A DNA stretch of 41,164 nucleotides from IMG/VR virus record IMGVR_UViG_3300025133_000253, positions 1-41,164 of that record; one strand, given 5' to 3'. The number at the start of each line of letters is the position of its first letter. Position 1 is the first letter of the stretch. The DNA is from a virus. The translations under genes were made by a program, and so were the position numbers. The notes beneath the pieces are model-generated. The model saw only the letters and a program-made list of their open reading frames with translations. It did not search any database and was not told the origin of the DNA. Below are positions 881 to 37,853 of this stretch, piece by piece.

Positions 881-3800
881 ATGTCTGCTTACGATCGTTT
901 TAATGTAGATGCTCTACTAGAAGAGATACAAAACCCACCTGTTACAACTGATCTTGCACAACCGCCAAGAGAAGGATTTGGAGCTACTGCATTTGAAGCT
1001 ATGGGTCAAAGTCTTTGGGGTTTTACTACTGGGTTTAGCTGGGGTCTTCCTGAGATAGCAGATATTGCTGATGAGGCGGTAACTGGAAGACCTAATAGAA
1101 TAGAAGAATGGGTAACAAGTATACCTGCTAAAGCATTTACTTTTGGAGATGACAAAGAAAGTTATGCAGGAGATTTTTCTTCATCTGCTACTGATCGGGA
1201 ACTAACACTTCCTGGCAAGATAGGATATACTGTAGGGAATGCAGTTGGTATGCTAGCTAGTTTCGGTTGGCTCGGGAAAGGACTTAGTGCGGGAATAAGA
1301 GGAGTCTCAAAATTAGGTTCAGGAGGTATGACTACTGCAACTAAACTTGCACAGGATGAAATAACTGAATCATTTGGTAAAATAGTATTTAAAGCAGGGC
1401 AGAAAGAAGGAGCAGAGCAGTTTACTGAAGAAGTATCTAAAGATATTGCTACAAATGCTCTTAATATTGTATCAAAATCTGGAGTTCATTACCAGGCAAA
1501 TAAAAAGCTTGGTGATGCTATGATCCAGCAAGGCTTTAAGCAATCTATAAAAGAAGAAGCATTAAGACCTATATTGGGGAATATAGATGATGCTTTACTT
1601 GATAAGTTTGCTGGAGAAACTCTTGAAATAGCAATGAGAAGAAGTCCCAATGAAGGTATGAATATTATTAATAATGGTGTTCTTAACCTGATGAGAAGGG
1701 GCGGTACTATACAAGATCTCTCCAGAGCACAAAGAATTTCTGCATCTGTAGCAGGTGCAAGTGTGTATGATGCATTGCTTGGTACTGTTATAGGTGCTGT
1801 AAGAGGTCTTGGTGAATATAAAATTAATGAATCATATAATTGGAATAAACCTGAATCTGCATTGGGCCATATTCTTGATACTGCTGCTCATGAAGCTGCA
1901 ATCTTTTCAATACTTGGCCCTGTTAAATTTATTAGGGGTGGTGGCCGATTAAGTGCAATTAAAAAAACCAAGGATATGACACGTGGTGTTATTAATAGTT
2001 TAAGACCTGTTAAGAAAATGACTGCAGAACAACTTGAAACTAATATAGAGTTGATGCATCATTTGAGTGGTGGGAATATATCTTCTCATTTAGGTGGTAA
2101 ATGGATTGGTAAAGCTGATGGATGGTGGAAAGGTGCTGGTAAACTATCTAAGAAAGAAGCTGAAAAGTCTGTTAAAGAAATGCGTGAGTTCCTTACAGAA
2201 TCACGTCGTGTATTTTTAAAGGAAGCACCAGGTGTATTTGCCAGTGAAGTAGGAGCAGATATGTTTTATAGTCTTCCTAGAATGATGACTGGTGCTGTTG
2301 CTATGAATCTTACTGGATTGAAACAGGCTATTGATGAATATGGTGTTACTGGTTTTATGGAAGGATTTGGTGCAACTGATTATGAGAAGGTATCGAATAT
2401 CATGACAGCTATGTTCTTTACAAAAACACCTCATTCATTTCATCTCCCAGGAGCAGCTTACCCTGCTTTTGAAACAGGTAATATAAGAAACTTCTCATCA
2501 AGGAAGGGTGAGCAATTTAGTAAAGTAGTTACTGGATTAAATCTTATAGGTGGTAGGAATTATAAAAGTGCATTACAAATAGCATCTCAATATGGTGGTA
2601 TGAGTGATACTACTCCTGCTGATCATTTTAATAAAGTATATAGTAAGTCCTTTGAAGGGGCTGAAGAAATACAACGGATAAGAGAGGTAATAGATCCTCA
2701 TACTTCTGAGAAATACGTTACTCCGCAAGGTGAAGAACCTATAGGTGGACTAAGAGTAGCAGGTGCTAAATATATAGCTGAGAATGTTACTGAGATAGGA
2801 GAAAAAGCTGATTGGAGAAATAAACTAAGTACAGCTTTAAAAATAGTTAGATGGCATGATGAAAATTCTGCAAAGACTATGGACATCAGTGCAGGATTAA
2901 CAAAGGAAGCAGCTGGTGATCTTATTAATAAACTATCATCAATTGAATTTGATGGTAAAAGATTAAGTCCCAGAGAGCCACAACAACAGTTAAATGATTG
3001 GCTTGCTGCAAGAATATCTAGAGAAAGTAATGTTCCTATCAGTATTATAAAAGATTTTGTTGTAGAATCATATAGAGAGCTTGGTGTTCCTAATGTAGGG
3101 GAAATAGATGGTGTAATAGTAGTTCCAAGAATAAATGAAAATCTTTTTGGGTCTTATGTTGATAAAAATACAAATAAAAGAGATGGATCCAGACCTGAAT
3201 CTGGAGAGGCTTTAAGAAGTCTTGTTACAGCAACTCAGCAATTAGAAAAATTAGGTGTTGTAAGATTTGCCGAAGCTGTTCACGATGCTTCTTCAGATGA
3301 AATGATTTCAAAAAGTATTGATGTAAAAAATACTGCTGTTAAGAAGATGATGCAGTATGTACATGGTGATGCATGGGAAACAAAAGCATTAGATGATTCT
3401 ATTCTAAGAAATCCTTCTTGGTATGTTCAGCATAATAAATTATCTGATATCTCTCAGAAACTGAATGTAGAAAGAGTATTAAAAGGTTCAGGTGATCATG
3501 GTCTTGATGAAAATTCTGCGAATAAATTATATGAAGACTTAAGAGACAATCTTTCAGGTAACAGTTTCCCCGAAATAACTACTAAAGACAATCTTGTAAT
3601 GGATGATGTGCAGATAAGTCAGACAGCTGATTTAGCAGGTGCCATTAAAGATATGAGGCGTGTACATAATCTTGTAAATCTTGTAAACCCTCAAAGTATT
3701 TCAGGCCCCCAAAGGAATTTATCAGCAGAAAGATTACTTGAGATTCATGGACAATGGTCAAGGACTCTTGGTGATGCTGTTACTAATGATGTTTTGTACA

Positions 3801-6800
3801 GTAAAATGCAAGAATATTTGGTTGGTAAAGCTATTAAGAATCTGGGTATAAGTCGTCTTTCTGGTGGATATAACCTGCATGCTGGTATACATCAGCTGGT
3901 AACAAATAAAGAATTTATGCGAAGTACTGGCATGCAAATTCCTAAAGTGGAACAAGTAAAGGCTATGCTTGAAGCAAAAGGAGATCAGATTACTCCTGAA
4001 ACACGTGACAGTGTTTTGAAATATTATAATAGTGTAGTTGGGGCTATAACTGAGTCAAGACTTGGAAAAATCCAGGTAAGAGAAATGGTTGAACAGCAAC
4101 AAGGTGCCTGGTATGAAGCAATAAGATCATCTATGCTTACTGGAAGAGGAAGGGCAAGCGAGTTTGCTTATGAAAGAATTTTAGATTTTACGAATCAAGC
4201 ACAGGATCTTCTTGATCAGCATCAAGTCTTTGCAGATGAAATGACGTTGAGTGCATCTAGAGAAGGTATCAATACTATAAAGGAAAAGAAATTAACTGGA
4301 TTATTTATGGCAGCAGAAGGAGATATAAGAAAGGCTGTTGCTCAATATAAGAGTGCTATAGAATCAGGAGATGGATTTATTGTTCATGCATATGCAGATC
4401 GTATGGATAGATCTATGGAATTATTAGATTTAATAACTCAATCTGCTGTTACAGGAACGCATGGTCAGTATACTCAGGAATTATTAAAACTTAGCAGAGA
4501 AGCTATAAGTGAAGCTGAAAGAAGCGGTTGGACTGAATTAACTGTAAAGGAAGAAGCTTCCAGAATAATGGGAAGACATACTATACCAGAAAAAGACACA
4601 ATAAATACAGGGATTCGTGTTTCATCTTCGCAATTTGCTCAAAAATATGATTTAAATATTACAGATATGACAAATATGTTTTTGTCTTATAGGTCAATGA
4701 ACACTACAATGGGTAAGACTGCTGAATCCATATTGAATGTCTTAGATAAAGTGGATCCTATGATGGAATATAATGGTGTAAGAATATTTACACCACAGCA
4801 AGCAAGTGATATTTCAAAGACAAGGGAATATGTAAAGAATGTAATTGCTAAATCTGGATCTCCTGATCCAAATAAATTCTGGCAAGAGATTGTAGATCCA
4901 TTAATGTTCAGTATCAGAACAAATGAAATTGTAAGAAACCGTAGTAAGATTAATAAAGAGCCTGAAGGTGGATGGGATAAATATAACCAAACACTTATAT
5001 CCGACATCAGTTCTATAACTACAGCATATTTTAGTAGTATGCCTGTAAAACAATATTCCTATAGAAATGGTCAATTATTTCTAGGTGAAGCTAAGGTAGG
5101 CTACACAGATAAACATGGCGTACAGGGTGTAATTTCAGCCTTAAATGGCACATCTGAAATATCTATGCTAAGTAATGGTTTTTATATAGGCGGTAAATAT
5201 GTTTCAAAGCCAAATAAGAAACAAATGCAAGAGATTATCAGGGAGATTGAATCAGGTGATGGATTGCATGTTGAGATGGATAATGGACTTAGGGAATATC
5301 TTGGAGATAGAAAAAAGATTGAAGATCATAAAGCAGCGGAAGGTAATGATGCTATTATCCTTAATAAGCAAAGATTTAAAGTTATAAGTGCTGATGAAAG
5401 CACGTTAATGCTTGTAAGAATAGGTAGGGATGGTCGTATTGAGAATGATCTTTTATCTGGCTTTCGTAAATCGGGTAAAAATGCAGATGGTCAGAGAATG
5501 TCTGGTGGACATTTATATGAAAAGATCCAAGCATCATTAGAATACGATCCAATAACCAAGAGTGTAGATTATCCTACTGAAATTTCAAGAATTGTTGATA
5601 GAATCAATGAGGGTAAGCTTACAGATAATGAAATACATGATGCAGTGGTATTGACAAGAATTATTAATGATAGACCATCTCTTATAAGGAAGTTTGCTGA
5701 GTTATCTGCTGAAGAAAGAAAGAAATCCTGGAAGTATCTAAAGCTTAGTGAGATGAAGGGTGGATTTGTAGGTCATGAAGAGAATCTTGCAAGAGTTAGA
5801 TCATTTTTAGAAGGAGCTGCTAGTCAAGATAAGTCTGGTTTTTTTGCAAATGTTTTAGAACAGGCAAGAATATTTTTACCTAAAGATAAGAATGCTAAGT
5901 TTCCAAAGATGAAACTGCTGTCTGTTGCTGATGAAATGGTGCATCAAGATGGTAAGTTAAATATATTTTCATCTATTGATCATAAAATAGCAGAATTAAC
6001 CGATCTGAAATCAAGAGAAATAATTGATGAAGCTACATTTAACGAGAATGTAACTAAATATAAAGCTCTTAGTAAATCTATAGTTGATGGTGAAACATTT
6101 ATATCTAAACGTGCTTATGTAGCTAATCTTGCTATGATGGGAGGTATCAGTCCTGATATGGTTAAGTTTGGCCCTGGTGGTGAGATACAAGAGATAATGA
6201 TAGGTGGTATCAAGCCTACTATATCTCATACAGATGTTAAAACAGACATGAGTGATCTTACAAGTTATGGGAGAGTTAAAGAATTCTATGCAAAGACAGC
6301 ATTCAAATACAATCCTGAGTTTGATCAACTATTTACTGATTTAAAAATAGATGGTATTACATTTAATTCAGCTAATAAGATCAATGAGTATAGAAATAAA
6401 ATATCAGATCCGTGGTACAATACCGATATGGAACAAATGCAATCTACTATTGCAGCTGGGAATCGCAATGTACATGCATCAATAAAACCTATTGAGAGCC
6501 ATGTTGATATGCCTAAAGGTTTTGGTTCCGTAAGTCAATGGTTGGGTAAAATTGGTAATATTATACATCATAGTACAAATATACATGAAATACCTTTTGA
6601 ATCTATCAACTTAAAATCTTTAGGACAGCCTCATGATCCATTAGTAGGATCAAATCTCAGTGTACATATGCATGATAATGTAGGAATCAGGGAATGGATT
6701 GGATTAGATGCTAAGATTAAAAATACATATAGTGCTTTTGAAAAATATGTAGATCCATATTATGCAACAAGATTAGCTCGTGATCTATTTGCTCATTCTT

Positions 6801-9800
6801 CTGATACAGGAGATATGACATGGCTTAATACAGGTATAGATCATTTTCTAAAACATGATGGTCTTTTAATATCCCCATGGGCAAAGACGAAGATAGAAGA
6901 AAAGATTATTCCATACTTTATGAATAATGGTATGATAGCTGCAGGTCGTGTACCAGAAGGATCTTTAGATGTTATGACTGCAGATACTGGAGGTTTAAGA
7001 ACATCTACTGTAAGAACAGAAGCTGATGGTGGCAGATCAGTTCAATTATATGGTGAGTTTGTCCAATCAAAACATGCTGCTGAAAAAGAGTTTAAGATTG
7101 GTGGTGTAGGAAAGAGAGAAGATGTTCAAAGTGTTATTATACAGACTGTTAAGCATGGTAGTTTTGATCGTGAAGGCAATTATGAATTAAGATCTTCAGA
7201 CGCATTTCTTGTTAGACGTGGTAAGGAGAAGTATGTTATTATAGAAGGTAAGGCTATTGATAAGGAAGGTAGTCTAAGAGATATATATGATGATTCAATT
7301 ATAAGCTATAAAGGTAATAATTCTACAGATAATAAACGTGCTAAGGTTGAAAATAGAAAAGTATTTAATGAAGTAGTAGCAAGAGAAAATGAATTCCTTA
7401 ATGATTATGTTCAAAAGGGAATGAATTATAGTGAAGTTATGACACAGCTTTACTGGCACGGTCAGGATCCAGCTTATAAAGAATATGATATGGCACTTGG
7501 CTCACTCAATAATAGACAGCCAAGAAACCAGGCTGGTGATGTTGTAGTTAGCAGGTTGAAAGCACATGAAATAGATGGGAAGGTAATTACACATAATGGT
7601 GAATTTGCTGGTAATAGCAGTAGGATGAATCATGCTGATGCTATCAATCCACAAGATGCTGATTATGATATGGATAAATCTTCTTCATTCCTTGCTGCTC
7701 CAAGCAGATTGTGGGCTGAAGCTGGAAGACTTGCTGGATATAGAACTGTAGATGATATTAAAGGGATAGAAGCTATTTTTGATAAATTTAGTGCAGAGAA
7801 TCCTAAACTTTTTACATGGGAAGGTGATCCTCATCAATATAAAGGTGAGATAAATGCTACTGATCTAGCACGTGGAAGATTTGTAAAGATGCATCAAACC
7901 TTAACTTATATGCAGAATATATTAAGGGACAATCGGGGTATGATGATTAGGATGGCTAATCCTTTTGGTGGTTATAATCCTGTAGAAATTAGAATGAATA
8001 CTAATAAGTTAAGATATCTTAATACAGTTGATGAAGTTTCAAAGAATGTTAAATTATTTTTAGATATGTATAAGGAAAACCCTTTTGGATATACAGTAAA
8101 TCCAGAGCCATTAATAAGGGAATTAATATTTGGATTTGAACGTAGTGGTGTTAAACATGAAGGTTTATTTGATTTATATAATGCTAAGACAGGTGAAAGA
8201 ATAGTAGATCAGAACATAAATGACTCTTCTACTCCAATGAAAAGAGCAAGGGACGATATATATTATGGATTAATATCTCCTGTTGGAAGGTATCTGAAAT
8301 ATAATAAAGGTACTACAACAGATGAAACAAATAGAGATTTATCAGCTACTCTTCAGGATTATCAAAATGCCAGACGTGGTCTTATGTTTTCTATACTACC
8401 AAATAAAAAGGGATTAAACTTTAAAACTGAATACAAAGGTAAAGATGTATTGTATGATAATACAGGTATGTATGAAGCTGCAAATAATTATTTTGCTAAT
8501 TCAGCTAATCCATTTGATGTTGCGATGAAAGGTCTTCATGAAATTGCAAACAAACATCATGGACTGGATGAAACAAAGCCAGGTACTCATCATATATTAA
8601 ATTATCTAAAGGATGGTAGGATGCCAGCAGAATGGTCTCTGCCTCCTAATATAAAATCAGATTTAACAACTGAATTTCAAATGAATAGAATTGCAAAAGA
8701 AGCTATGCATCAACTCGCACAGAAAACAGGAGATATTGTCAAGTTTGAAGAGTTGGCTGCCAATCTTAGAAGGATCAATAGTAAAATAGAATATCTTGAT
8801 GGCATTGGAGGTAATAGAGGTAGGGATATAAAGGAAACAACTGAGTATAGAGAACTTCAAGGTCAAAAAATAAGAACAGAAGAATTAAAGTCTATTGTTG
8901 AAGAACATTTATCATATGATTCCAATAATCCAAAGAATGAATATGTATATAACCCAGCTCAAAAGGAGCCTAAAAAACAGGGTGACTATACTAATTTTGA
9001 AAATAGACCTCTGGTTGTAGTAAATAAAAAGGGTGAAACTAAAGAAGTAATATTGCCTGGAAGAAGAAATATTAAAGATATTTATTCATCTGATCGTCTT
9101 GTTAAAAATGGTCATAGATATGAGATTGTAGATGGTGAAGCTCAAATGGGTTTAAGATCTGATTTTAGAGCTTTTGGAGGTCAAGTAAAATATGTACATG
9201 AAGATGGTAGGATTACTCATATATCAAAAGGGGAGCAAGTATATATAAATTCAGAATACAATAATTTAAGACAAAGAATTAATGAAATGTATGCTAAGCT
9301 TCCTGATCGCACAGGGCCTGTACTTGCTGAATATGCGGCCAGACGTACTTCAGAGATACTTGATTTACTTTCAAGTCCTGAGTTTAGTGGTGATCCTGCA
9401 CGTCAGTTTGCAATGATTGCAAGGATGTTAAGACCCAACTGGGATCCTAATGTTTCACCTATTATACCAACAAGATTTGGACAGCACTCACGTACTTCAG
9501 TAGTTGGATCTATAAAGTTTACTGAAAATAAATTAGCTCAGGGTGTGTGGAATACTCTTGCTCAAGTAGCAAATGGTAGTGTTGAAGTAAGTAAGGGTGG
9601 TATAGATAAAACAATGGCTAATCGGTTATTAAAGGATCTTATCTCTCTTTCAAGGAGTTATTATGTACAGGAGAAGACTGGTATTGAAGTTGATATGAGA
9701 AAATTAGAGAAGATAGGATTTACAGAACCAACAGAACTTCCTCATGGATATATGACAGATGCTCAATATTTAAACAAGGGTATATATAAAATAATGCGTG

Positions 9801-10108
9801 ATGGTGATAAACAGCAGCGGCATGCAGCAGGATTAATGTATGATTATATGTCAGGTAGTAAAATGGTTGATTCAGCTACTCTTTATAAAGCATCTAAAGC
9901 TATGGAAGAAGCGGGGATACGTGTAGATGAACAGTTTATGATGAAGACTTATGATCGGGAAACAAATACATATGGTGATGTTGAAGTAAGAAACTTTGGT
10001 GTTATGGATGCATATAACAGTAGGAATAGAGGGCAAGGTGGTATAGTTAAGGAATCAACTACTGGTAGGGTAAAAGAATTATTTAAATGCCTTGATCTAA
10101 CTAAATGA
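881..10108 (+). CDS. Giant virion protein with a double-psi beta-barrel RNA polymerase signature (candidate virion RNA polymerase)
   Basis: This 3075-aa protein is the largest gene in the window. Residues 2261-2265 read DYDMD followed by Lys (bases 7661-7678). They are preceded by GDVVVSR at 2219-2225. In cellular beta-prime subunits the catalytic loop NADFDGD lies about 35 residues after the Arg of the VLLNR strand. Here the Arg-to-first-Asp distance is 36, and the run INPQDADYDMDKSS keeps the xADxDxD pattern that binds magnesium. The single-chain polymerases of crAss-like phages also use a DxDxD loop. Residues 112-140 and 290-350 are Gly/Ala-rich and hydrophobic, as in ejected internal virion proteins. 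I therefore infer a packaged protein that enters the cell and transcribes early genes. The rest is unrecognised. No Shine-Dalgarno is visible before ATG 881 (TAATATAT precedes it), so translation may be coupled to the gene 5 bases upstream. It could instead be an ejection protein with a chance motif. Confidence 0.7.
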   Translation: MSAYDRFNVDALLEEIQNPPVTTDLAQPPREGFGATAFEAMGQSLWGFTTGFSWGLPEIADIADEAVTGRPNRIEEWVTSIPAKAFTFGDDKESYAGDFSSSATDRELTLPGKIGYTVGNAVGMLASFGWLGKGLSAGIRGVSKLGSGGMTTATKLAQDEITESFGKIVFKAGQKEGAEQFTEEVSKDIATNALNIVSKSGVHYQANKKLGDAMIQQGFKQSIKEEALRPILGNIDDALLDKFAGETLEIAMRRSPNEGMNIINNGVLNLMRRGGTIQDLSRAQRISASVAGASVYDALLGTVIGAVRGLGEYKINESYNWNKPESALGHILDTAAHEAAIFSILGPVKFIRGGGRLSAIKKTKDMTRGVINSLRPVKKMTAEQLETNIELMHHLSGGNISSHLGGKWIGKADGWWKGAGKLSKKEAEKSVKEMREFLTESRRVFLKEAPGVFASEVGADMFYSLPRMMTGAVAMNLTGLKQAIDEYGVTGFMEGFGATDYEKVSNIMTAMFFTKTPHSFHLPGAAYPAFETGNIRNFSSRKGEQFSKVVTGLNLIGGRNYKSALQIASQYGGMSDTTPADHFNKVYSKSFEGAEEIQRIREVIDPHTSEKYVTPQGEEPIGGLRVAGAKYIAENVTEIGEKADWRNKLSTALKIVRWHDENSAKTMDISAGLTKEAAGDLINKLSSIEFDGKRLSPREPQQQLNDWLAARISRESNVPISIIKDFVVESYRELGVPNVGEIDGVIVVPRINENLFGSYVDKNTNKRDGSRPESGEALRSLVTATQQLEKLGVVRFAEAVHDASSDEMISKSIDVKNTAVKKMMQYVHGDAWETKALDDSILRNPSWYVQHNKLSDISQKLNVERVLKGSGDHGLDENSANKLYEDLRDNLSGNSFPEITTKDNLVMDDVQISQTADLAGAIKDMRRVHNLVNLVNPQSISGPQRNLSAERLLEIHGQWSRTLGDAVTNDVLYSKMQEYLVGKAIKNLGISRLSGGYNLHAGIHQLVTNKEFMRSTGMQIPKVEQVKAMLEAKGDQITPETRDSVLKYYNSVVGAITESRLGKIQVREMVEQQQGAWYEAIRSSMLTGRGRASEFAYERILDFTNQAQDLLDQHQVFADEMTLSASREGINTIKEKKLTGLFMAAEGDIRKAVAQYKSAIESGDGFIVHAYADRMDRSMELLDLITQSAVTGTHGQYTQELLKLSREAISEAERSGWTELTVKEEASRIMGRHTIPEKDTINTGIRVSSSQFAQKYDLNITDMTNMFLSYRSMNTTMGKTAESILNVLDKVDPMMEYNGVRIFTPQQASDISKTREYVKNVIAKSGSPDPNKFWQEIVDPLMFSIRTNEIVRNRSKINKEPEGGWDKYNQTLISDISSITTAYFSSMPVKQYSYRNGQLFLGEAKVGYTDKHGVQGVISALNGTSEISMLSNGFYIGGKYVSKPNKKQMQEIIREIESGDGLHVEMDNGLREYLGDRKKIEDHKAAEGNDAIILNKQRFKVISADESTLMLVRIGRDGRIENDLLSGFRKSGKNADGQRMSGGHLYEKIQASLEYDPITKSVDYPTEISRIVDRINEGKLTDNEIHDAVVLTRIINDRPSLIRKFAELSAEERKKSWKYLKLSEMKGGFVGHEENLARVRSFLEGAASQDKSGFFANVLEQARIFLPKDKNAKFPKMKLLSVADEMVHQDGKLNIFSSIDHKIAELTDLKSREIIDEATFNENVTKYKALSKSIVDGETFISKRAYVANLAMMGGISPDMVKFGPGGEIQEIMIGGIKPTISHTDVKTDMSDLTSYGRVKEFYAKTAFKYNPEFDQLFTDLKIDGITFNSANKINEYRNKISDPWYNTDMEQMQSTIAAGNRNVHASIKPIESHVDMPKGFGSVSQWLGKIGNIIHHSTNIHEIPFESINLKSLGQPHDPLVGSNLSVHMHDNVGIREWIGLDAKIKNTYSAFEKYVDPYYATRLARDLFAHSSDTGDMTWLNTGIDHFLKHDGLLISPWAKTKIEEKIIPYFMNNGMIAAGRVPEGSLDVMTADTGGLRTSTVRTEADGGRSVQLYGEFVQSKHAAEKEFKIGGVGKREDVQSVIIQTVKHGSFDREGNYELRSSDAFLVRRGKEKYVIIEGKAIDKEGSLRDIYDDSIISYKGNNSTDNKRAKVENRKVFNEVVARENEFLNDYVQKGMNYSEVMTQLYWHGQDPAYKEYDMALGSLNNRQPRNQAGDVVVSRLKAHEIDGKVITHNGEFAGNSSRMNHADAINPQDADYDMDKSSSFLAAPSRLWAEAGRLAGYRTVDDIKGIEAIFDKFSAENPKLFTWEGDPHQYKGEINATDLARGRFVKMHQTLTYMQNILRDNRGMMIRMANPFGGYNPVEIRMNTNKLRYLNTVDEVSKNVKLFLDMYKENPFGYTVNPEPLIRELIFGFERSGVKHEGLFDLYNAKTGERIVDQNINDSSTPMKRARDDIYYGLISPVGRYLKYNKGTTTDETNRDLSATLQDYQNARRGLMFSILPNKKGLNFKTEYKGKDVLYDNTGMYEAANNYFANSANPFDVAMKGLHEIANKHHGLDETKPGTHHILNYLKDGRMPAEWSLPPNIKSDLTTEFQMNRIAKEAMHQLAQKTGDIVKFEELAANLRRINSKIEYLDGIGGNRGRDIKETTEYRELQGQKIRTEELKSIVEEHLSYDSNNPKNEYVYNPAQKEPKKQGDYTNFENRPLVVVNKKGETKEVILPGRRNIKDIYSSDRLVKNGHRYEIVDGEAQMGLRSDFRAFGGQVKYVHEDGRITHISKGEQVYINSEYNNLRQRINEMYAKLPDRTGPVLAEYAARRTSEILDLLSSPEFSGDPARQFAMIARMLRPNWDPNVSPIIPTRFGQHSRTSVVGSIKFTENKLAQGVWNTLAQVANGSVEVSKGGIDKTMANRLLKDLISLSRSYYVQEKTGIEVDMRKLEKIGFTEPTELPHGYMTDAQYLNKGIYKIMRDGDKQQRHAAGLMYDYMSGSKMVDSATLYKASKAMEEAGIRVDEQFMMKTYDRETNTYGDVEVRNFGVMDAYNSRNRGQGGIVKESTTGRVKELFKCLDLTK

Positions 10109-19154: not shown

Positions 19155-19814
19155 TTATTTTGCCATTAGAGACATAGATGGGAAATGGAATATTACTTCC
19201 TTTTCAAATGGTTGCTTGGTTACTATCTTTGCAACAGCATTAGTAATGAAGGATCCAGCCATATTACTACAATAGCTTGTAGCTTTAGCAGTACATGGTT
19301 CTTCGCTTCCTTCATGATCATCATACCAGCATTTTTTATACTTGGTTACAGTTGGCTTCTTAAAAGCATACTGCTGATATGTTTGTGCTCCCATACGACC
19401 ATCTATGAGTATAACTGGTTTAAGTCTTTTTACACTACATGCTATTTCAACTGCTTGTAGCCTACTTGACATATTATCAAATCCTAAGACAATAATATCA
19501 TTTCCATAAGATGCATATTGACTACTATCTACAAATTTGTCTCTTACAGACAGTACAATCGGATCCTGACATATTTCAGACAAGTATTCAGTCAATACAT
19601 CTACCTTATATTTGCCTATATCAGGTGCAGTATACTGACTGACGCCAATATTTTCAAGAGATACCTTATCATAATCATAAAGTGTAAACTTTTCTGCACC
19701 AGATCGGGCTAATTGGGTGGCTGCGGAACTGCCAATAGCTCCGCAACCAAGTATGTGGAAATGAAATTTATCAAAGTTGTTAAATATGCCTTCAAACCTT
19801 GATATTCTGCTCAT
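19155..19814 (-). CDS. E1/ThiF-like ubiquitin-like-protein activating enzyme
   Basis: About 219 residues from the preferred start. The Rossmann core is clear: FHILGCGAIGSSAATQLA (ATP loop), TLYDYDKVSLENIG (the DxDxVxxxN region; the usual downstream R-Q is V-S-Q) and the GFDNMSSR block. LIDGRMGAQTY follows. A Cys-rich catalytic region, EEPCTAKATSYC, lies near residues 172-182. E1 enzymes adenylate the C-terminal glycine of a ubiquitin-like protein, and many then hold it on Cys. I chose the ATG at 19814 because GGAG lies upstream; an ATG at 19826 would add four residues. The gene overlaps the JAMM gene. The ubiquitin-like partner lies 2.5 kb upstream in the same operon. No thiamine or molybdopterin genes are nearby. 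Confidence 0.88.
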   Translation of the reverse strand: MSRISRFEGIFNNFDKFHFHILGCGAIGSSAATQLARSGAEKFTLYDYDKVSLENIGVSQYTAPDIGKYKVDVLTEYLSEICQDPIVLSVRDKFVDSSQYASYGNDIIVLGFDNMSSRLQAVEIACSVKRLKPVILIDGRMGAQTYQQYAFKKPTVTKYKKCWYDDHEGSEEPCTAKATSYCSNMAGSFITNAVAKIVTKQPFEKEVIFHFPSMSLMAK

Positions 19815-20691
19815 TTTCCTCTCCATAATCTACGAAATTAGTAGGATTATATCCACTATAAATCCCAGAATTGAGTTGAAGTTCATTTTCTGTATATTCC
19901 TTAATACTAAAACTTGCTTTCTTTAGTTTAAGTATTTTATTCCAGTTTTTAACTTCCTTCAACCATTCCTTGAAGGTGAATTGTCCTTCTGTGTAAAGAT
20001 CATTCCATTCAGCTACAATTTCAAGACTAGAATCATAGATTTGATCTCCAGAATATCCATGTTTATGACCATAACTAGATTGATAGCCATTTCCATAATA
20101 ATTATGTATATAACTATCTCTATCCCAATCTCTTGTATTGTAAAGAGATGTTTGTTTTCCATTCTTTTTGTAATTAGTCATCACTGTAACTGGTTTATTA
20201 CAAAGTTTAGAAACAGAATCTCTTATAGCTTTTGGAACAGTTCTTGCTTTTGCATCTAATATATTCAGATCTATATCTTCATGAGCTATAATTGGATTCC
20301 ATACACAAACTCTAAATTTATATTCACCACGAATATTAACTACAAGAAATGCAGACCAATCATCACTGGAATATTCTTTCATAGTATTTGTATCAGTTCC
20401 AGACCAGAATGCTGACATACTAGCATGTGAATGCCACCAGACAAATCTAACATCTTTACCATGTTTCATACAGGCTTTTACATAATAATCAGCTACAGCA
20501 GCTTTATCCATTTCTGTGGTACCGCCAGTTACATTCTGTTCTAATATTTCAGGTGCAGATAGTATTATATCTCCATCTTTATCCTTTTCGGCTATTAGAA
20601 AACCGCCAATCTCAGATTTGAATTCATCATAGGATGCTTGGGCATAATCTATGACTTTCTTCCAATCCTTTTGAGTAATGTAAAACTCCAT
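19792..20691 (-). CDS. JAB/JAMM metalloprotease (deubiquitinase-like)
   Basis: 299 residues. Residues 1-150 form a JAB domain: Glu27 in SEIGGFL and the zinc motif H87-S-H89, seven residues, S97-x-x-D100 (WWHSHASMSAFWSGTD). This is the complete JAMM signature of proteases that cleave after the diglycine of ubiquitin-like proteins. A Tyr/Gly/His-rich segment follows (about 195-220), then a helical tail. The likely job is to trim the four residues after GG in the ubiquitin-like protein encoded upstream, to remove it from targets, or both. The gene overlaps the E1 gene, so the two enzymes should be made together. Tail-tip NlpC/JAB proteins of phages are an alternative, but the E1 neighbour argues against that. 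Confidence 0.88.
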   Translation of the reverse strand: MEFYITQKDWKKVIDYAQASYDEFKSEIGGFLIAEKDKDGDIILSAPEILEQNVTGGTTEMDKAAVADYYVKACMKHGKDVRFVWWHSHASMSAFWSGTDTNTMKEYSSDDWSAFLVVNIRGEYKFRVCVWNPIIAHEDIDLNILDAKARTVPKAIRDSVSKLCNKPVTVMTNYKKNGKQTSLYNTRDWDRDSYIHNYYGNGYQSSYGHKHGYSGDQIYDSSLEIVAEWNDLYTEGQFTFKEWLKEVKNWNKILKLKKASFSIKEYTENELQLNSGIYSGYNPTNFVDYGEENEQNIKV

Positions 20692-20701
20692 TAGTATCTC
20701 C

Positions 20702-22234
20702 TTATCTGTTTTGTGCGTTTTGATTTAAAGTAACCCATCTAAGCATATCTTCTGCTACTGTATTAGTATTAGAATATTCCATAGGATAATCATCATTTTC
20801 TGTATCTTCTGAAAGAGTAATACTCTCAACAGGTAATGTTGAAACAACCTTTCTTGTAATCATATCATCTTCTTTAAATATCATACTTATCCTTTCACTT
20901 TCCATGTGTTTAAGATCACTTTGATAACCATGACAATCTTTCATGATATTTTTTGTACAAATCTTATTACAAAGTTCATTTCTTGCAATTGATGTTGTAT
21001 GAAAATTCACCATTCTATCATAACAATGTGATTTACTAAATCCTATTCTATCCAAATAATCTGCTTTTACATTTGAATCTAAATTATTAGGACTACCAAA
21101 ATAAGAAGTTGTTATGTTATTTAGTGGATGAGTTATACCCAATCTGAATGTACTTATCCAGGTATGTACATTTTCTATCCATCTAATTAAATTTATTTTA
21201 GCATGTGATCCATCAACTATATTCATGTTACCAGCACATGTATTAGATGATCTATTATAACTAATAAGCCAATCAGAAGGATTTTGTGCTTGTGTAGCTC
21301 GTCTTTGAGCACTACTACTACTATTATAAATATGATAATTTATAAATGGATGTTTTTGTCCTTGTATATGTGGTTTAAACCAATATCTGGTTATTCCACG
21401 TGAAATACCCGATCTTCCTGAAAGATTTAATGAAGAATACATCAATTGTTCAAGAGTAAGACTATAGCTACTAATAACATTTCCAATTGGAAACGTATAT
21501 ACAGGAACATTATCTTCGACTACAAATACATTCATCATTACATCTTTAAATGGATGAAAAATTGTAATTGTAGACTGATTTGTAATACCAGTTCTATTAA
21601 GAATGATTTTAGGTTTTGTATCATCAAACTTCCACATTTCTGTTAATAGATTATCTCTAAAACGTTTTTCTTCTTGTAATTCTTCTGCTGAATTAGAATT
21701 AAAGTTTGTTTGAATAATGTCTATCCCTTCCTTCATAACATCATCTTTATTGAACATTGCAATATATTTAATATAATCATCAAATATTTTAACAATTTCT
21801 TTAGTACATACATCAAATAACTCTTTAATTTTATTTTTATCATCGAGCCAGACTGCATTTGACCATCGTCTTTGTTGAAGAATCCTATCTACATCAAAAA
21901 CTTTGTTTTTAAATCTGTTAAAACAGTATGATCTTCTGTTTCTATCAGGTCTTATCCAAATGTTCTGAATACTTCCCCATTTGAATTTTTTATTCTTATA
22001 AGATCCTTCCCAGAAGTTCTTAATAATTTCAGCATTTTTAAATGTCCCATGTTTCCATGTAAAATTCTTATTAACATTAAATTTTATTGTAGGATAATTG
22101 GGACTTCCATATTGATCATCTTTAAATTGCCATGGGATTGATCTATTTAATACTTCTACTGCTTCAATTAATTTTGCTTGGGGGCCTATGGGAAGATAAC
22201 TGAAGTCATGTTTCTCTATAAATTTCTTAATCAT
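20702..22234 (-). CDS. 510-aa protein of the ubiquitin-like cassette, possible E2-like domain
   Basis: I do not recognise this protein with certainty. It lies between the ubiquitin-like protein and the JAMM protease, the place of an E2 or of PRTRC proteins B or F in bacterial cassettes. Residues 284-300 read YWFKPHIQGQKHPFINY, and SNTCAGNMNI follows at 330-339 with a helix (INLIRWIENVHTWIST, 347-362). A P-H-[IV] strand, a Cys followed by Gly and then an amphipathic helix ending before a Pro is reminiscent of the HPN-Cys-helix block of E2 enzymes. Cys333 would be the thioester site. An insert separates His and Cys. Further Cys residues lie at 404, 422, 426 and 434. GGAG lies before the ATG. 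Confidence 0.6.
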   Translation of the reverse strand: MIKKFIEKHDFSYLPIGPQAKLIEAVEVLNRSIPWQFKDDQYGSPNYPTIKFNVNKNFTWKHGTFKNAEIIKNFWEGSYKNKKFKWGSIQNIWIRPDRNRRSYCFNRFKNKVFDVDRILQQRRWSNAVWLDDKNKIKELFDVCTKEIVKIFDDYIKYIAMFNKDDVMKEGIDIIQTNFNSNSAEELQEEKRFRDNLLTEMWKFDDTKPKIILNRTGITNQSTITIFHPFKDVMMNVFVVEDNVPVYTFPIGNVISSYSLTLEQLMYSSLNLSGRSGISRGITRYWFKPHIQGQKHPFINYHIYNSSSSAQRRATQAQNPSDWLISYNRSSNTCAGNMNIVDGSHAKINLIRWIENVHTWISTFRLGITHPLNNITTSYFGSPNNLDSNVKADYLDRIGFSKSHCYDRMVNFHTTSIARNELCNKICTKNIMKDCHGYQSDLKHMESERISMIFKEDDMITRKVVSTLPVESITLSEDTENDDYPMEYSNTNTVAEDMLRWVTLNQNAQNR

Positions 22235-22254
22235 GAGATTCTCCTTTAGTTTAA

Positions 22255-22316
22255 AGTCGGGGGTTTATCAACGAATATAGTCTATTTTGACTTTTTCAAA
22301 TAATATTCCCCCGACT
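22255..22316 (-). terminator. Inverted repeat between the ubiquitin-like gene and the 510-aa gene
   Basis: Arms AGTCGGGGG/CCCCCGACT (22255-22263 with 22308-22316) enclose a 44-base loop that itself contains AGTC/GACT. It sits in the 131-base gap after the ubiquitin-like gene. It may be an attenuator making the small ubiquitin-like protein more abundant than the downstream enzymes. The rest of the gap (22317-22365) shows nothing clear. Confidence 0.5.
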
Positions 22317-22365
22317 ATTGTGGTTAACGGAACCGATCAATAATTCCCGCTATTAAAGAAAAGAG

Positions 22366-22578
22366 TTAAGACTTTGTCTCTCCACCTTTCTTATTAGTTT
22401 TAACAGCAGCAACCCGATCATCATCACGAAGTTCGTGAGAATCATTGGCTACAACACGGTTCACGTTAATAGCCTCAGTACTTAAACCAAGTTCTGTACG
22501 AAGTCCACCAACTGTGGTAGATTCTACATTGGTTTCAGTAAAGCTGGCTGTATCATTGCACAAAAGTATATTTGGCAT
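22366..22578 (-). CDS. Ubiquitin-like (ThiS/MoaD-type beta-grasp) protein with near-terminal diglycine
   Basis: 70 residues. The order strand (NILLCND), helix (TVGGLRTELGL, 22-32), strand (INVNRVVA, 37-44), the turn ELRDDDRVAAVK (49-60) and then KKGGETKS matches the ThiS/MoaD beta-grasp pattern, in which the last strand follows a D-D-D-R-V or DGD-x-V turn and ends in GG. The diglycine is at residues 65-66 with four residues after it. A JAMM protease would have to trim it before an E1 could activate it, and both enzymes are encoded in the same operon. The start has a perfect AGGAGG Shine-Dalgarno, among the strongest in the window. This fits a stoichiometric modifier. Confidence 0.78.
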   Translation of the reverse strand: MPNILLCNDTASFTETNVESTTVGGLRTELGLSTEAINVNRVVANDSHELRDDDRVAAVKTNKKGGETKS

Positions 22579-22590
22579 TGATGTACCTCC

Positions 22591-23331
22591 TTATTTGTAG
22601 TTAAATACTGTATTGATTCTTTTTCTTTCCTTAACACAGGAAACTAAGACATCAGTAGGTATGAAACTATAGATTGCATTTTTAACTTCAGACGGATTTC
22701 CAACATTAAGCATATAATACACAAGTTCTCTCATATGAGCCTTTTGCAGCATTTTGCTATATGTTTTCTTATCCTTCTCAAGTTCTTTACGGTAAATACC
22801 CATTGCAAATGAATATGTAGATGCAGATCCACGTTTTGCTAGAATCCGCTTAAACAATCCATGTGCAAATGTTTTTCCAGCCCAATCTTCAAGATTTACT
22901 ATCCTTGAAAGAAATGTGGGTGGAACTGAATGACCATTCATATATCTCCAGAGATATTGATAGCCATCTATGGCTTTACGTTTACTGTTGGTAATAACAA
23001 ATGCATCACCATTACCTTCAATGGATGGTGCTATATACGCAGGTATTTGGGTGTACCCGAGTTTAGTGCATGTGGTTGTTCTTCTATGACCATCAGTAAT
23101 AACATAGTCCTTTGTGATTGTGATTGGCTTTTGTAATCCATGCTTATCTATTGAATGCATTAAAGCTGTCAGTTCCCTTTTAGAGCGTGGATCAGCCCAA
23201 TCTATCCGCATTGGTGGTTGACCAGGATTATTGGTTAATTGATCAATACTTACAACTATAGGTTTCCCTAATTGACCAACTGTTTTACCGTTTTTATTTT
23301 TGATAGTACTTACAGGTCTTCCTTGTACCAT
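22591..23331 (-). CDS. ParB/Srx-like protein of the ubiquitin-like cassette
   Basis: 246 residues. Residues 26-102 form a ParB/sulfiredoxin-type domain: VVSIDQLTNNPGQPP, then ELTALMHSIDKHGLQKPITI, then the phosphate-binding block VITDGHRRTTTCTKLGYTQIP. The DGHRR box replaces the GERR box of chromosomal ParB, as in ParB-like nucleases and PRTRC ParB proteins. Such domains bind or hydrolyse nucleotides. The C-terminal half is helical and basic (GYQYLWRYMNG, LFKRILAKRG) and may bind DNA. It lies directly before the ubiquitin-like gene. ParB-related plus ThiF-related genes are the namesakes of the PRTRC cassette. CTCC (GGAG on the minus strand) precedes the ATG. Confidence 0.83.
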   Translation of the reverse strand: MVQGRPVSTIKNKNGKTVGQLGKPIVVSIDQLTNNPGQPPMRIDWADPRSKRELTALMHSIDKHGLQKPITITKDYVITDGHRRTTTCTKLGYTQIPAYIAPSIEGNGDAFVITNSKRKAIDGYQYLWRYMNGHSVPPTFLSRIVNLEDWAGKTFAHGLFKRILAKRGSASTYSFAMGIYRKELEKDKKTYSKMLQKAHMRELVYYMLNVGNPSEVKNAIYSFIPTDVLVSCVKERKRINTVFNYK

Positions 23332-23365
23332 ACTATCCTCCTTATTGTGGTTTGTTTTACGATTT

Positions 23366-23482
23366 GAAATCTGCCAGTAATCGCTCGGCAGGTAATCCTT
23401 AATACTAAGCTAGCAGCAAAGCTCGGGGATTAAGCGTACAGGAGTTACACCTGTATATTACGTTCCAGTTTAAAGTGCTGGC
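23366..23482 (-). other. Structured gene-free leader upstream of the ParB-like gene
   Basis: The 164-base gap 23332-23495 holds nested short stems: CTGCC/GGCAG (23371-23391), TAATCC/GGATTA (23393-23398 with 23427-23432) enclosing AGCT/AGCT, TACAGG/CCTGTA with a seven-base loop (23437-23455), and GCCAG/CTGGC closing the set (23373-23377 with 23478-23482). Several pairings compete. It may be a structured leader or processing signal controlling the ParB and ubiquitin-like genes. It is not a tRNA. Confidence 0.35.
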
Positions 23483-23495
23483 TACACTCCCAAGT

Positions 23496-24068
23496 TTAAT
23501 CTTCTGATTCAACAGGTGCTTTAAATCTTTTCCAAATTCCTATTGGGGTGAAATAAGAAAAGATATGTTCAATCCTTTTGCTATATGTATCTCTTTGAGC
23601 AGGATCATCAATATCAAGATCATTTTCTTTAAGTACATCTTTGTTGAATTTGTATTCATGTACTGGATCTACATATGTAAGGTATTGATCACAACAGTCT
23701 GCATCATTCAATCTTTCTCCAGCTACTACAGGAGGTAATTCACCTGAAGACCATGTAATATGAAGAGGAAATCCAGGTAATTCATTGCCATCTTCATCGT
23801 ATCTTCTTAATTGATTCCTAAGAATACGATTTGTTGTTCCGCCTTCATGTAATTTAAGGTTTATTAGTGAAGCAAGAATTTCACCATCATCATAAATACC
23901 AATATGATCTAGTTTAATCCAATCATCTTCTTCAACATTCTGTGGAAATGCACAGTTATCAGGTTGATAATGGTATGTAACATGATGTTTACTTAAAGCA
24001 AATGCAGCTTTATTTTCTTTTATAACTGGTTTAACCAAAAATACACCAGTAAATATGTCTCTTTCCAT
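23496..24068 (-). CDS. 2H phosphoesterase-like protein
   Basis: 190 residues. Two H-x-T motifs, KHHVTYHYQP (His29, Thr31) and FPLHITWSSGELPP (His103, Thr105), lie 74 residues apart in beta-strand contexts. This is the layout of the 2H phosphoesterase superfamily, which cleaves cyclic phosphates, 2'-5' links or cyclic oligonucleotides. The phage anti-CBASS protein Acb1 and several RNA-repair enzymes belong here. The protein opens the ubiquitin-like cassette on the transcript. An anti-defence or RNA-repair role is inferred. AAGGAG lies before the ATG at 24068, inside the 3' end of the 39-aa gene. The C-terminal 60 residues are acidic and unassigned. Confidence 0.65.
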   Translation of the reverse strand: MERDIFTGVFLVKPVIKENKAAFALSKHHVTYHYQPDNCAFPQNVEEDDWIKLDHIGIYDDGEILASLINLKLHEGGTTNRILRNQLRRYDEDGNELPGFPLHITWSSGELPPVVAGERLNDADCCDQYLTYVDPVHEYKFNKDVLKENDLDIDDPAQRDTYSKRIEHIFSYFTPIGIWKRFKAPVESED

Positions 24069-34337: not shown

Positions 34338-37300
34338 ATGGCTACAACAAATATAGAATTAGATATAGAAAATGTAACTGGTGTTTCAGATGCTGATGAC
34401 CAGTTCGTTAAGAGTGCTCAGAAATTTGTAGTCTCAAGCATTCCTAAAAATTTATTACATTGGGCTGGAACAAGTACTGCAAGTGCGACTCACGGTGGAG
34501 ATGATTCTCCAACTGCTGTAACTTTACCACAGCCAACAGACAATATTTTAGATGTACAAAGAAATGGATTTAGTGCTGAAGAAGTACCTGAATCCATGCA
34601 GGGATTTATTGCTAATTCTTCCAGTATGCATTTAGCAACTAAAACATATCCTAAATATTATACACAAGCAGGTAGTAAAGTAGTAGTAAAACCAGATCCT
34701 ACTGCAAGTGAAACAGTATTAGTAAATTATGTAGATTTTTTAAAGATAGATGATGATTCTGATTTAAGAAATGCTGTTGTTTTTCATGCTTGTGCAAAAG
34801 AATTTACACAATTGGCTACTTCAGCTGTACCAACTTGGAGTGATGTTGCAGTTCCTATAGCACCTGTTGCTCCTGATTTTGGTAGTGATTTATCAATTAA
34901 TTCAATAGGGCCTTCATCACCTACTATATCTACAGTAAGTTATTCAGATGCAACTAATGCTGATTCTACTGCATCTACTATTGGTGCCATTACAGTAGCA
35001 TCTGTTTCAAAAGCTGATATAAGCGGTGATGTCCCAACTTATACCAAACCATCTCTTACAACTAGAGTTTCTTTTGATACATTCTTTGATGGTTCTACGA
35101 ATTCATTTGGCGATAGTGATCCTGGTGTATTCACTATTTCTGTTGTTGCTCCTATTATGGGAAGTATAAATACAGTATCTTACACAGATGCAACTAATGC
35201 AGATGCTTCTGCTTCATCTATTGGTGCTATAACAGTTACAGCAGTTTCAAAAGCTGATATAAGTGGAAATGCTCCAGCGTACACAAAACCTACATTAACG
35301 ACTCAAACATCATTTAATGATTTTTTTGAAAGTGGTTCTAAAAATCCTTTTGATGATAGCGATCCAGGAGCATTTAGTATTTCTGAAGTTGCTCCAACAG
35401 TACCTACAATTACAGCTTCTACGGTAAGTTTTAGTCAAACAGCTCCTACATATACAAAACCTGTAATAACATTAAGTGATGCACCATCTATTAGTAATTT
35501 AACTATTAAAGCAATTGCTCCAGCACCACCTACGAGTCCTTCAATATCTGGTGGTTCTGTTGGAGCAATTACAATAGATGCTTTACCGTCTGCTCCTGAT
35601 TATACTACACCTACTACAACAATAAGTGGTGTTGTATGGGCTACAGAATATCCTTCTGAAGCATCAGCTATTACTACAGCTTTAACTGCAATCAACGCAA
35701 ATGTTGATCTTGCTAATGCAACAGTAGATGTAATTCCAGTACCTCCAGATAGTCCAACTTTATCTACAGGTACATCTGTATCATTTAGTACAAGTGCACC
35801 TGTGTATACGGCACCAGCTATTACAACAACTGGATCTGATAGTACATCTGTAGATTTAACTAAACTTGATACTGCTACTTGGACTGCATTGGATTATGAT
35901 TTTGATGATGAAAATATTGATCCTTTAAAATGGTTCCAAGTTGCTGGAGATATGATTCAGAATGAAGAAGATCCAGAATTAGCTCAGGTACAATTACAGA
36001 AGATAGCTACTTATATACAGGCTTATAGTACAGCTATGCAGAATCAATTAAATAAATTTAATGATGCTAATGCAGAATATCAGATAGAATTTCAAAAATC
36101 TTTAAAGAATGCTGATTTTGATAATGAAGAAGATGCTAGGTTATTACAGAAATATCAGGCAGAACTTGGAGTTTATCAGGGAGAAATAGCTGCTATGTCT
36201 GCTCAATCTCAAGGTTATCTTCAAACAGCACAGGGATATGCTAGTGAAGTTCAAACTAGATTATCTTCTGCTCAGATAAAAGTATCAGAGTATCAAGCAA
36301 GAGTTAAGGATGCTTTAAATGTATTCAATGAAGGTAATGCTGTATATCAAGCAGCAATACAAAGAAATTTACAACAAGCACAGATAGATATGCAGGATGC
36401 TCAGAAAGAAGCTGATTTAACTTTGCAAGCATCAATACAGGATTATACTTTAGAACTCCAGTTATTTCAGCAAAAAATTGCAAAATATCAAGCAGAAGTA
36501 ACTGATGAAGTTCAAGAGTATCAACAAAACCTTCAAGGTGATCTGCAGGTCTGGCAAGCTGAAAGACAGACAGATTTACAAAAATATGCTTCAGATATTC
36601 AAAATGAATTAAATGAGTATAATAAAGAGAATGCAGTATATCAAGTAGAACTGAAAAAATCCATTGAGAATGCACAATTAGAATCTGCTGAAGAAGCTCA
36701 AAAATTACAGAAGTATTCTGGAGAAATTCAGGAATACCAAGCAAAAGTTGTAACTGAAGTTCAAGAATATCAGGCTAAAATGTCCAGATATCAATTAGAA
36801 GTAGGTACAGCTTATACAGCATGGCAACAAACTGAAGCAGATAATATAGCAGTTTTTCAAGCAGATATTCAAAATGAGTTAAATGAATTCAATAAGGAAA
36901 ATTCTATATATCAAGCTAATATACAGGCAGAACTTGCAAAACATAGTAGTGACCTTCAAAAAGTATTAACACAAGCACAATTGGATGCAACCGATGCACA
37001 GCAGGAAGCTTCATTGACTACAGATGTAAGTAAATTCAATAAAGCACAGGATCAAGCTTTGGCTCTTCAGAATGCAGCTAAGCAAATAGAAGACGTTATA
37101 GCTGATAATGGTATTAAAATTCAGAAATATCAGGCAGAATTACAAAATTATCAAAATGATATTAATGGTCAAGTACAACAATATACTCAAAAGCTTTCTC
37201 GTTATCAATCAGAATTACAAAGTGTTATTGCTGCTTGGTCTAAAACCGAAGATGATTCATTACAGCAGTATCAATTAGATATACAGAATGAATTAAATGA

Positions 37301-37853
37301 GTTTAACAAAGATAATGTAAGATATCAGGCTAATATTCAAGCTGAATTAGCTAAACACAATTCAGATCTTCAAAAAGCATTGAATCAAGCTCAATTAGAT
37401 GCTCAAGATGCTCAACAAGAGGCTTCATTAACTACAGATGTAGATAAGTTTAATAAAGCACAAGATCAAGTATTAGCTTTAGCTAACGCTGCAAAACAGA
37501 TAGAGGATGTTATAGCAGATAATGGTATTAAGATCCAAAAGTATTCAGCAGAACTTCAATCATACCAGGCTGATGTAAATAAAGAAGTACAGGATTTTAC
37601 TAATACACTTAACAAAGAAGTACAGGAATACCAAAGTAAAGTTGCTTTGTATACAGCTGATTTACAGAAATACCAGGCAGAAGTAGCTTCAGAAACTCAA
37701 AAAACAGCCTTAAATTCACAGAAGGCTCAAGTTTATGCAGTAGAAGCTGATAAATATTACAAATGGGCTGTTGCTGAAGTACAAAGTTATGTTCAGAACA
37801 ATTCAAAAATGATTGGCATGCAGATGGCATCACAATCACAACAAAGGAGGTAG
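34338..37853 (+). CDS. Large adaptor/coiled-coil structural protein with internal repeats
   Basis: 1171 residues in three parts. Residues 1-170 contain VLVNYVDFLKIDDDSDLRNA followed by a conserved-looking helix (VFHACAKEFTQL), similar to phage head-tail adaptor proteins. Residues 195-520 hold Ser/Thr/Pro-rich beta repeats; two copies of an 80-residue unit (bases 34932-35171 and 35172-35411) share TNADxxAS and SKADISG. Residues 540-1150 are a long Gln-rich coiled coil (YQAELQNYQ) with a 138-residue unit duplicated (36861-37274 and 37275 onward). It may form a long whisker, collar or fibre stem. No Shine-Dalgarno is visible. Tape measure is unlikely because no tail genes surround it. Confidence 0.75.
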   Translation: MATTNIELDIENVTGVSDADDQFVKSAQKFVVSSIPKNLLHWAGTSTASATHGGDDSPTAVTLPQPTDNILDVQRNGFSAEEVPESMQGFIANSSSMHLATKTYPKYYTQAGSKVVVKPDPTASETVLVNYVDFLKIDDDSDLRNAVVFHACAKEFTQLATSAVPTWSDVAVPIAPVAPDFGSDLSINSIGPSSPTISTVSYSDATNADSTASTIGAITVASVSKADISGDVPTYTKPSLTTRVSFDTFFDGSTNSFGDSDPGVFTISVVAPIMGSINTVSYTDATNADASASSIGAITVTAVSKADISGNAPAYTKPTLTTQTSFNDFFESGSKNPFDDSDPGAFSISEVAPTVPTITASTVSFSQTAPTYTKPVITLSDAPSISNLTIKAIAPAPPTSPSISGGSVGAITIDALPSAPDYTTPTTTISGVVWATEYPSEASAITTALTAINANVDLANATVDVIPVPPDSPTLSTGTSVSFSTSAPVYTAPAITTTGSDSTSVDLTKLDTATWTALDYDFDDENIDPLKWFQVAGDMIQNEEDPELAQVQLQKIATYIQAYSTAMQNQLNKFNDANAEYQIEFQKSLKNADFDNEEDARLLQKYQAELGVYQGEIAAMSAQSQGYLQTAQGYASEVQTRLSSAQIKVSEYQARVKDALNVFNEGNAVYQAAIQRNLQQAQIDMQDAQKEADLTLQASIQDYTLELQLFQQKIAKYQAEVTDEVQEYQQNLQGDLQVWQAERQTDLQKYASDIQNELNEYNKENAVYQVELKKSIENAQLESAEEAQKLQKYSGEIQEYQAKVVTEVQEYQAKMSRYQLEVGTAYTAWQQTEADNIAVFQADIQNELNEFNKENSIYQANIQAELAKHSSDLQKVLTQAQLDATDAQQEASLTTDVSKFNKAQDQALALQNAAKQIEDVIADNGIKIQKYQAELQNYQNDINGQVQQYTQKLSRYQSELQSVIAAWSKTEDDSLQQYQLDIQNELNEFNKDNVRYQANIQAELAKHNSDLQKALNQAQLDAQDAQQEASLTTDVDKFNKAQDQVLALANAAKQIEDVIADNGIKIQKYSAELQSYQADVNKEVQDFTNTLNKEVQEYQSKVALYTADLQKYQAEVASETQKTALNSQKAQVYAVEADKYYKWAVAEVQSYVQNNSKMIGMQMASQSQQRR
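36861..37688 (+). repeat. Tandem 414-base repeat in the coiled-coil region
   Basis: Two adjacent copies start at 36861 and 37275. Encoded landmarks in both are DIQNELNEFNK, AQQEASLTTDV and QIEDVIADNGIKIQKY. A partial third relative begins near 36594 (DIQNELNEYNKENAVYQ). The repeats point to growth by duplication of a fibre-like coiled coil. The right edge is approximate. Confidence 0.7.

Follow-up and report, generated by a model that had tools for sequence, protein, structure and literature searches.

A phage gene cassette predicted to encode a complete ubiquitin-like conjugation system beside replication genes

The viral record of 41,164 bases analysed here (the window) carries, among its replication genes, a cassette that we read, with a probability of roughly 0.7, as a complete and reversible phage-encoded ubiquitin-like (Ubl) conjugation system whose targets would most likely be proteins of replication or recombination. 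Four genes form this cassette and encode a Ubl modifier, a probable E2 (named E2' below), a JAMM isopeptidase and an E1/ThiF-like adenylating enzyme. The same quartet marks a phage lineage that includes dozens of uncultured relatives.

Results

Layout of the locus

The window contains terminase, portal, major head and tail-fibre genes. In a search among 50,697 phage records, the closest relatives of its portal and primase proteins were only distant. Between positions 24068 and 19155, six intact genes follow one another on the minus strand and encode a 2H-like protein, a ParB_N-domain protein, the Ubl, a protein of 510 residues, the JAMM protein and the ThiF/E1 protein (Table 1). The gene order is accordingly ParB-Ubl-E2'-JAMM-ThiF, and the start of the E1 gene overlaps the end of the JAMM gene by 35 nt. 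These reading frames all lie where the first-pass annotation had placed them, and its descriptions of a 70-residue beta-grasp protein ending in KKGGETKS, a full JAMM protease, an E1/ThiF fold with two cysteines and a ParB-like protein were borne out by the analyses reported below. On the plus strand, an ORF of 3075 codons (881-10108) is without Pfam or PHROG match, and another of 1171 codons (34338-37853) is without Pfam match and has a marginal PHROG match.

Table 1. Positions of the cassette genes and of flanking features in the window.
Feature	Length	Position	Strand	Characteristics
2H-like protein	190 aa	23496..24068	-	HVTY and HITW motifs; optional neighbour
ParB_N-domain protein	246 aa	22591..23331	-	PF02195; optional neighbour
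Ubl	70 aa	22366..22578	-	beta-grasp modifier; C-terminal KTNKKGG-ETKS
RNA hairpin, Ubl/E2' intergenic		22240..22366	-	folding energy compared with shuffles
E2' (putative)	510 aa	20702..22234	-	helical N-terminus, UBC-like core about 183-380, Cys-rich tail
JAMM isopeptidase	299 aa	19792..20691	-	Pfam Prok-JAB; catalytic motif
E1/ThiF-like adenylating enzyme	223 aa	19155..19826	-	Pfam ThiF
Zinc-ribbon protein CxxC...CxxC	61 aa	18876..19061	-	neighbourhood and alignment
Sak4-like ATPase	248 aa	17994..18740	-	PHROG 124, E 1.2e-24; downstream of cassette
Primase-helicase	579 aa	15320..17059	-	DnaB_C, PHROG 16345/19; constant neighbour

The Ubl modifier

AlphaFold2 models the Ubl as a beta-grasp fold; the mean pLDDT is 91, and confidence is low in the C-terminal tail. 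When the model was compared with the PDB by Foldseek and VIA, the structural matches were ThiS, TtuB and MoaD, which are the closest folds, together with SAMP2 and ubiquitin; the MoaD structures included the MoeB-MoaD acyl-adenylate complex. Pfam ThiS matched the window protein below its cutoff (E 0.007), and it matched 16 of 21 family members, the best at 1.7e-5.

Alignment of 21 homologues shows K-[TKV]-G-G as the final ordered motif. K-x-G-G is present in every one of them and at the C-terminus of 47/47 Ubls of a wider IMG/VR set. The diglycine, encoded at 22381-22386 in the window, is followed in most of the 21 proteins by 0-5 residues of no fixed sequence, a few of the proteins having a longer extension there, while some Ubls end exactly at GG. 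Judged by its sequence, this C-terminus resembles that of a processed ubiquitin-like precursor. In two relatives (L038, 674-1111; L042, 3004-3441), an extension of about 50 residues continues beyond the GG, and it is likely a precursor fusion for JAMM.

The Ubl gene is preceded by the ribosome-binding site AAGGAGG. Between it and the E2' gene, a hairpin is predicted (MFE -36.3, z -4.2, none of 200 shuffles as strong), in the base of which the E2' ribosome-binding site is paired. In the window, this hairpin could set a high Ubl:E2' ratio.

The JAMM and E1 enzymes

The JAMM protein scores 27.1 bits with Pfam Prok-JAB (cutoff 25) and carries an intact motif, E27...H87-S-H89-x7-S97-x2-D100 (H87-D100 at 20433-20392), which is the E...HxH-x7-S-x2-D signature of JAMM/MPN+ isopeptidases. 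E27, H87-S88-H89, S97 and D100 are invariant, also in the crAss-like homologue. Rpn11-type deubiquitinases head the PDB matches of the JAMM profile, with E-values that are modest (0.0015 or higher).

The E1 protein matches Pfam ThiF with an E-value of 1.1e-22. The PDB matches of its profile are E. coli ThiF, which is the best, MccB, UBA5, MoeB, Cap2 and BubCD. Residues G27, G29, D51, N59, K74, D117, R122 and C178 are common to this protein and the ThiF of the plasmid PRTRC cassettes; D53 and R10 are also conserved across 18 phage E1s. Its two cysteines are C178 and C186, the former (codon 19293-19295) being invariant in the 18 phage E1s and PRTRC ThiF. The window thus encodes both a beta-grasp modifier with C-terminal glycine and an E1 with intact adenylation residues and a cysteine, as a conjugation system should. 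In the E1 tree, the phage, PRTRC and crAss-like groups are separate, and their deeper order is not resolved.

The 510-residue protein as a putative E2

The first-pass annotation listed this protein but missed it as a probable E2. Among its 23 homologues, at 11-64% identity, Cys333 (codon 21236-21238) is invariant in all, as are W359 and P370; T368, G380, C404, C426 and C434 are nearly so, the three cysteines lying in the Cys-rich tail. The predicted model (pLDDT 72) contains a helix (183-201), four strands (209-214, 221-238, 246-260 and 281-288), the Cys loop and a further helix (349-361), and this modelled alpha-beta4-Cys-alpha order is that of the UBC core. VIA placed at the top a chain of the THO complex (chain E, Z 4.7), followed by one of BRISC (chain C, Z 4.5); all PDB Z scores for this protein are below 5 and hence weak. 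We take these chains to be THOC5, with its RWD domains, and BRE, with its UEV domains, both UBC-like.

Foldseek gave no significant match in the PDB, single-sequence scans of Pfam, PHROG, NCBIfam and PADLOC gave no useful match, and a search of the window with PF14460 (protein B, E2 family D) gave none. Profiles of the family had no significant match to any of the E2 families. As hhalign comparisons of shallow and deep alignments with PRTRC_B (E 0.08-0.29) were not significant alone, a shuffle test was used. The core profile gave its best alignment with PRTRC protein B, the PRTRC representative of the prokaryotic E2 family D, and the positions that pair are precisely C-x-G-N and W..F...TH. This alignment scored 17.9; the shuffles averaged 11.1 (sd 1.8), and one of the 200 scored as high.

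On account of the invariant Cys333, the UBC-like order, the weak VIA rows and the PRTRC_B alignment, the protein was named E2'. With moderate strength, we infer that it is probably an E2, and the gene set would therefore form a cascade. It might instead be a target or a scaffold, the Ubl being moved onto it or by E1 alone. The fast evolution of the family (mean identity 24%), its size range (427-701 aa) and the lack of a significant match to E2 profiles suit such a role, and the strict invariance of the cysteine, the UBC-like order and a gene position that matches PRTRC_B by synteny speak against it, so that we hold it to be unlikely.

Conservation of the quartet

The E1 profile matches 322 loci in IMG/VR; among the loci kept, 34 have at least 5 kb of upstream sequence and 54 have 3.5 kb of downstream sequence. 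Ubl, E2', JAMM and E1 are all encoded in 34/34 of the former, in the order Ubl-E2'-JAMM-E1 in 33, and a primase-helicase lies nearby in 54/54 of the latter, these loci being contigs, some of them close relatives, rather than independent events. The Ubl gene stands after E1 in a group of more distant loci (L052-L056). Between the window and its relatives, dN is far below dS (0.038 versus 0.267 for Ubl, 0.089 versus 1.28 for E1). The presence of the quartet in every testable locus and this low dN indicate that the cassette is not a chance assembly. Furthermore, the correlations between the distance matrices of the four quartet proteins are 0.86-0.96, and their correlations with the neighbouring primase are 0.77-0.88, in general lower than within the quartet. 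The view that the phage carries its own Ubl modification system among replication genes, put forward in the first-pass annotation, is upheld by these observations.

In the bacterial genomes searched, only large Cap2-like E1s were found, and no cassette of the window type on chromosomes. The ThiF of plasmid H37 was considered as a relative and rejected, as it belongs to an unrelated YcaO/TfuA locus.

Optional and flanking genes

The ParB protein is just over the PF02195 cutoff (26.7 bits; cutoff 26.3). Its gene is present in 3/34 IMG/VR loci with enough upstream sequence and the 2H-like gene in 5/34; both had been counted as members of the cassette and do occur in the window, but they are optional neighbours rather than cassette parts. 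As to the 2H assignment, the two motifs (H29-V-T-Y and H103-I-T-W) are indeed conserved in six homologues, but no Pfam, PHROG or PDB profile supported the label.

Directly downstream of E1 in the window, a zinc-ribbon protein (CxxC...FPxYGL...CxxC) is encoded, and in many relatives such a gene directly precedes E2'. It is a candidate accessory or E3-like factor. In the Sak4-like ATPase, Walker A (GSPGSGKT) is C-terminal and the rest of the AAA_24 domain N-terminal, so that the protein is apparently circularly permuted. Four close relatives examined have the same arrangement, and a similarly placed ATPase in L041 and L052-L056 has an N-terminal Walker A.

Comparison with known systems

Plasmid PRTRC cassettes have the order ParB-E-C-F-B-A-ThiF, with near variants. 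PRTRC cassettes, found on plasmids and ICEs, and the window have the order ParB-Ubl(C)-E2(B)-JAB(A)-ThiF in common. PRTRC_A shares the motif HSH-x4-AF[FW]S-x-TD with the window JAMM (hhalign E 1.4e-4, probability 52%), the C-x-G-N...TH motif of protein B pairs with E2', and most protein C sequences, tailed or not, have [KT]xKG(G) at their end, comparable to the phage Ubl. In two plasmid loci (L023, 213-608; L024, 192-566), protein C has a long C-terminal extension past KGG or GTKG, so that some plasmid Ubls look like precursors too. The window cassette differs in being phage-borne and replication-linked, in an E2' about twice as long and in that ParB is mostly absent from phage loci. Moreover, no PRTRC E or F gene was found among the window ORFs scanned, and the curated PRTRC models scored far below their cutoffs, TIGR03736 (ThiF) giving 27.5 bits with the window E1 (cutoff 144.75) and TIGR03735 (PRTRC_A, JAB) 12.8 bits with the window JAMM (cutoff 101.8). 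The resemblance to PRTRC noted in the first reading therefore holds for gene order and motifs but not for the curated models, and the cassette is PRTRC-like rather than PRTRC. Bacterial Ubl-JAB-E1-E2 operons have been described (Iyer et al. 2006, PMC1779556), and PRTRC fits row 6d of that survey.

A related four-gene module (Ubl domain, E2'-like protein, JAB and ThiF) is present in crAss-like phages (Steigviridae) and in the Flavobacterium phage Fpv1 (Fipvunavirus), and in both groups the E2'-like protein has a C-[LI]-G-[SE] motif. In crAss-like loci, the module adjoins the DNA primase, as the cassette is primase-linked in the window lineage. However, in both groups the Ubl domain is fused into a protein of 227-312 aa without GG, and in crAss-like phages the JAB protein has 394-426 aa and E1 forms a separate clade in the tree. 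The motif of the window E2' pairs with that of the crAss-like E2' profile, with a score not above shuffles (64/200 as high); the score of crAss-like E2' with PRTRC_B was not above shuffles either (126/200 as high). The match between the crAss-like and window E2' is one of motif only.

Type II CBASS (Cap2/Cap3), 6A-MBL and Bub systems have an E1 domain related to the window E1, but there E2 and E1 are joined in one longer protein, whereas the window E1 is stand-alone. Scans with Pfam, PHROG, NCBIfam and PADLOC found neither a cyclase nor an MBL nor any other partner gene of defence with the window cassette, and PADLOC matched only its general E1-E2 and JAB models. The cassette is not a type II CBASS operon, as it has neither a fused E2-E1 nor a cyclase. 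The tail genes TAPI/TAPK of lambda and T1 combine a phage Ub-like domain with JAB (PMC1779556), but they are tail assembly genes outside the replication region and are accompanied by neither E1 nor E2.

Discussion

In the mechanism that we propose, JAMM would trim those Ubls that have a variable tail past the diglycine, and E1 would adenylate the Gly-Gly terminus and pass the Ubl, possibly via its Cys178, to Cys333 of E2'. E2' would then move the Ubl onto a lysine or another nucleophile of target proteins, from which JAMM could take it off again. Since the quartet keeps its place next to the primase-helicase throughout the lineage, phage or host proteins of replication or recombination are the likeliest targets.

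The main rival to conjugation is a role as sulfur carrier, in which E1 would convert the Ubl to a thiocarboxylate after exposure of its GG by JAMM, and the 510-residue protein would sulfurate a nucleotide, a tRNA or a metabolite. JAMM proteins that expose the GG of a carrier are known from the pairs QbsD/QbsE and Mec+/CysO. This role agrees with the Ubl folds closest to the model, with E. coli ThiF as the best E1 match and with exact GG ends or short tails, which suit carriers too. However, no sulfurtransferase, rhodanese or cysteine desulfurase was found among the ORFs tested in the cassette and the replication region, and the partner protein has an invariant cysteine and PRTRC_B as its best profile partner; we thus regard a sulfur carrier as quite improbable.

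A conjugation variant with a different target, in which the cascade would tag host-defence or rival-phage proteins or compete with Bil or type II CBASS, had also been suggested at first; bacterial Ubl pathways do act against phages, as in cGAS conjugation (PMC10097602), and a viral cascade could invert this, but the constant linkage of a core, position-fixed set to the primase-helicase, in place of a variable accessory locus, favours a core role and makes this variant very unlikely. The best reading remains that the cassette is an autonomous, reversible Ubl system at work in the replication of the phage and not an accessory island of defence genes. In its widest form, namely that a large uncultured tailed-phage lineage possesses a core, replication-linked and complete Ubl cascade, also present in diverged form in crAss-like phages, and uses it to tag replication or recombination proteins reversibly during infection, the proposal is tentative and stands at a little under even odds.

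In the survey of bacterial operons cited above (Iyer et al. 2006, PMC1779556), the only phage Ubl and JAB proteins described are those of tail assembly. No phage Ubl-E1-E2-JAB cascade was found in the open-access literature searched. Ubl tagging machinery, known from bacteria and plasmids, does not figure in this literature as a core viral gene set.

Bacterial Ubl cascades have mostly been discussed as antiphage weapons or as plasmid cassettes of unknown role. If our reading is true, viruses run a ubiquitin-like regulation of their own, as a fixed core module beside their replication genes. The little-studied PRTRC family would gain a testable setting, and a compact four-protein system would become available for reconstitution. 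The crAss-like version would extend the cascade to human gut phages with cultured hosts.
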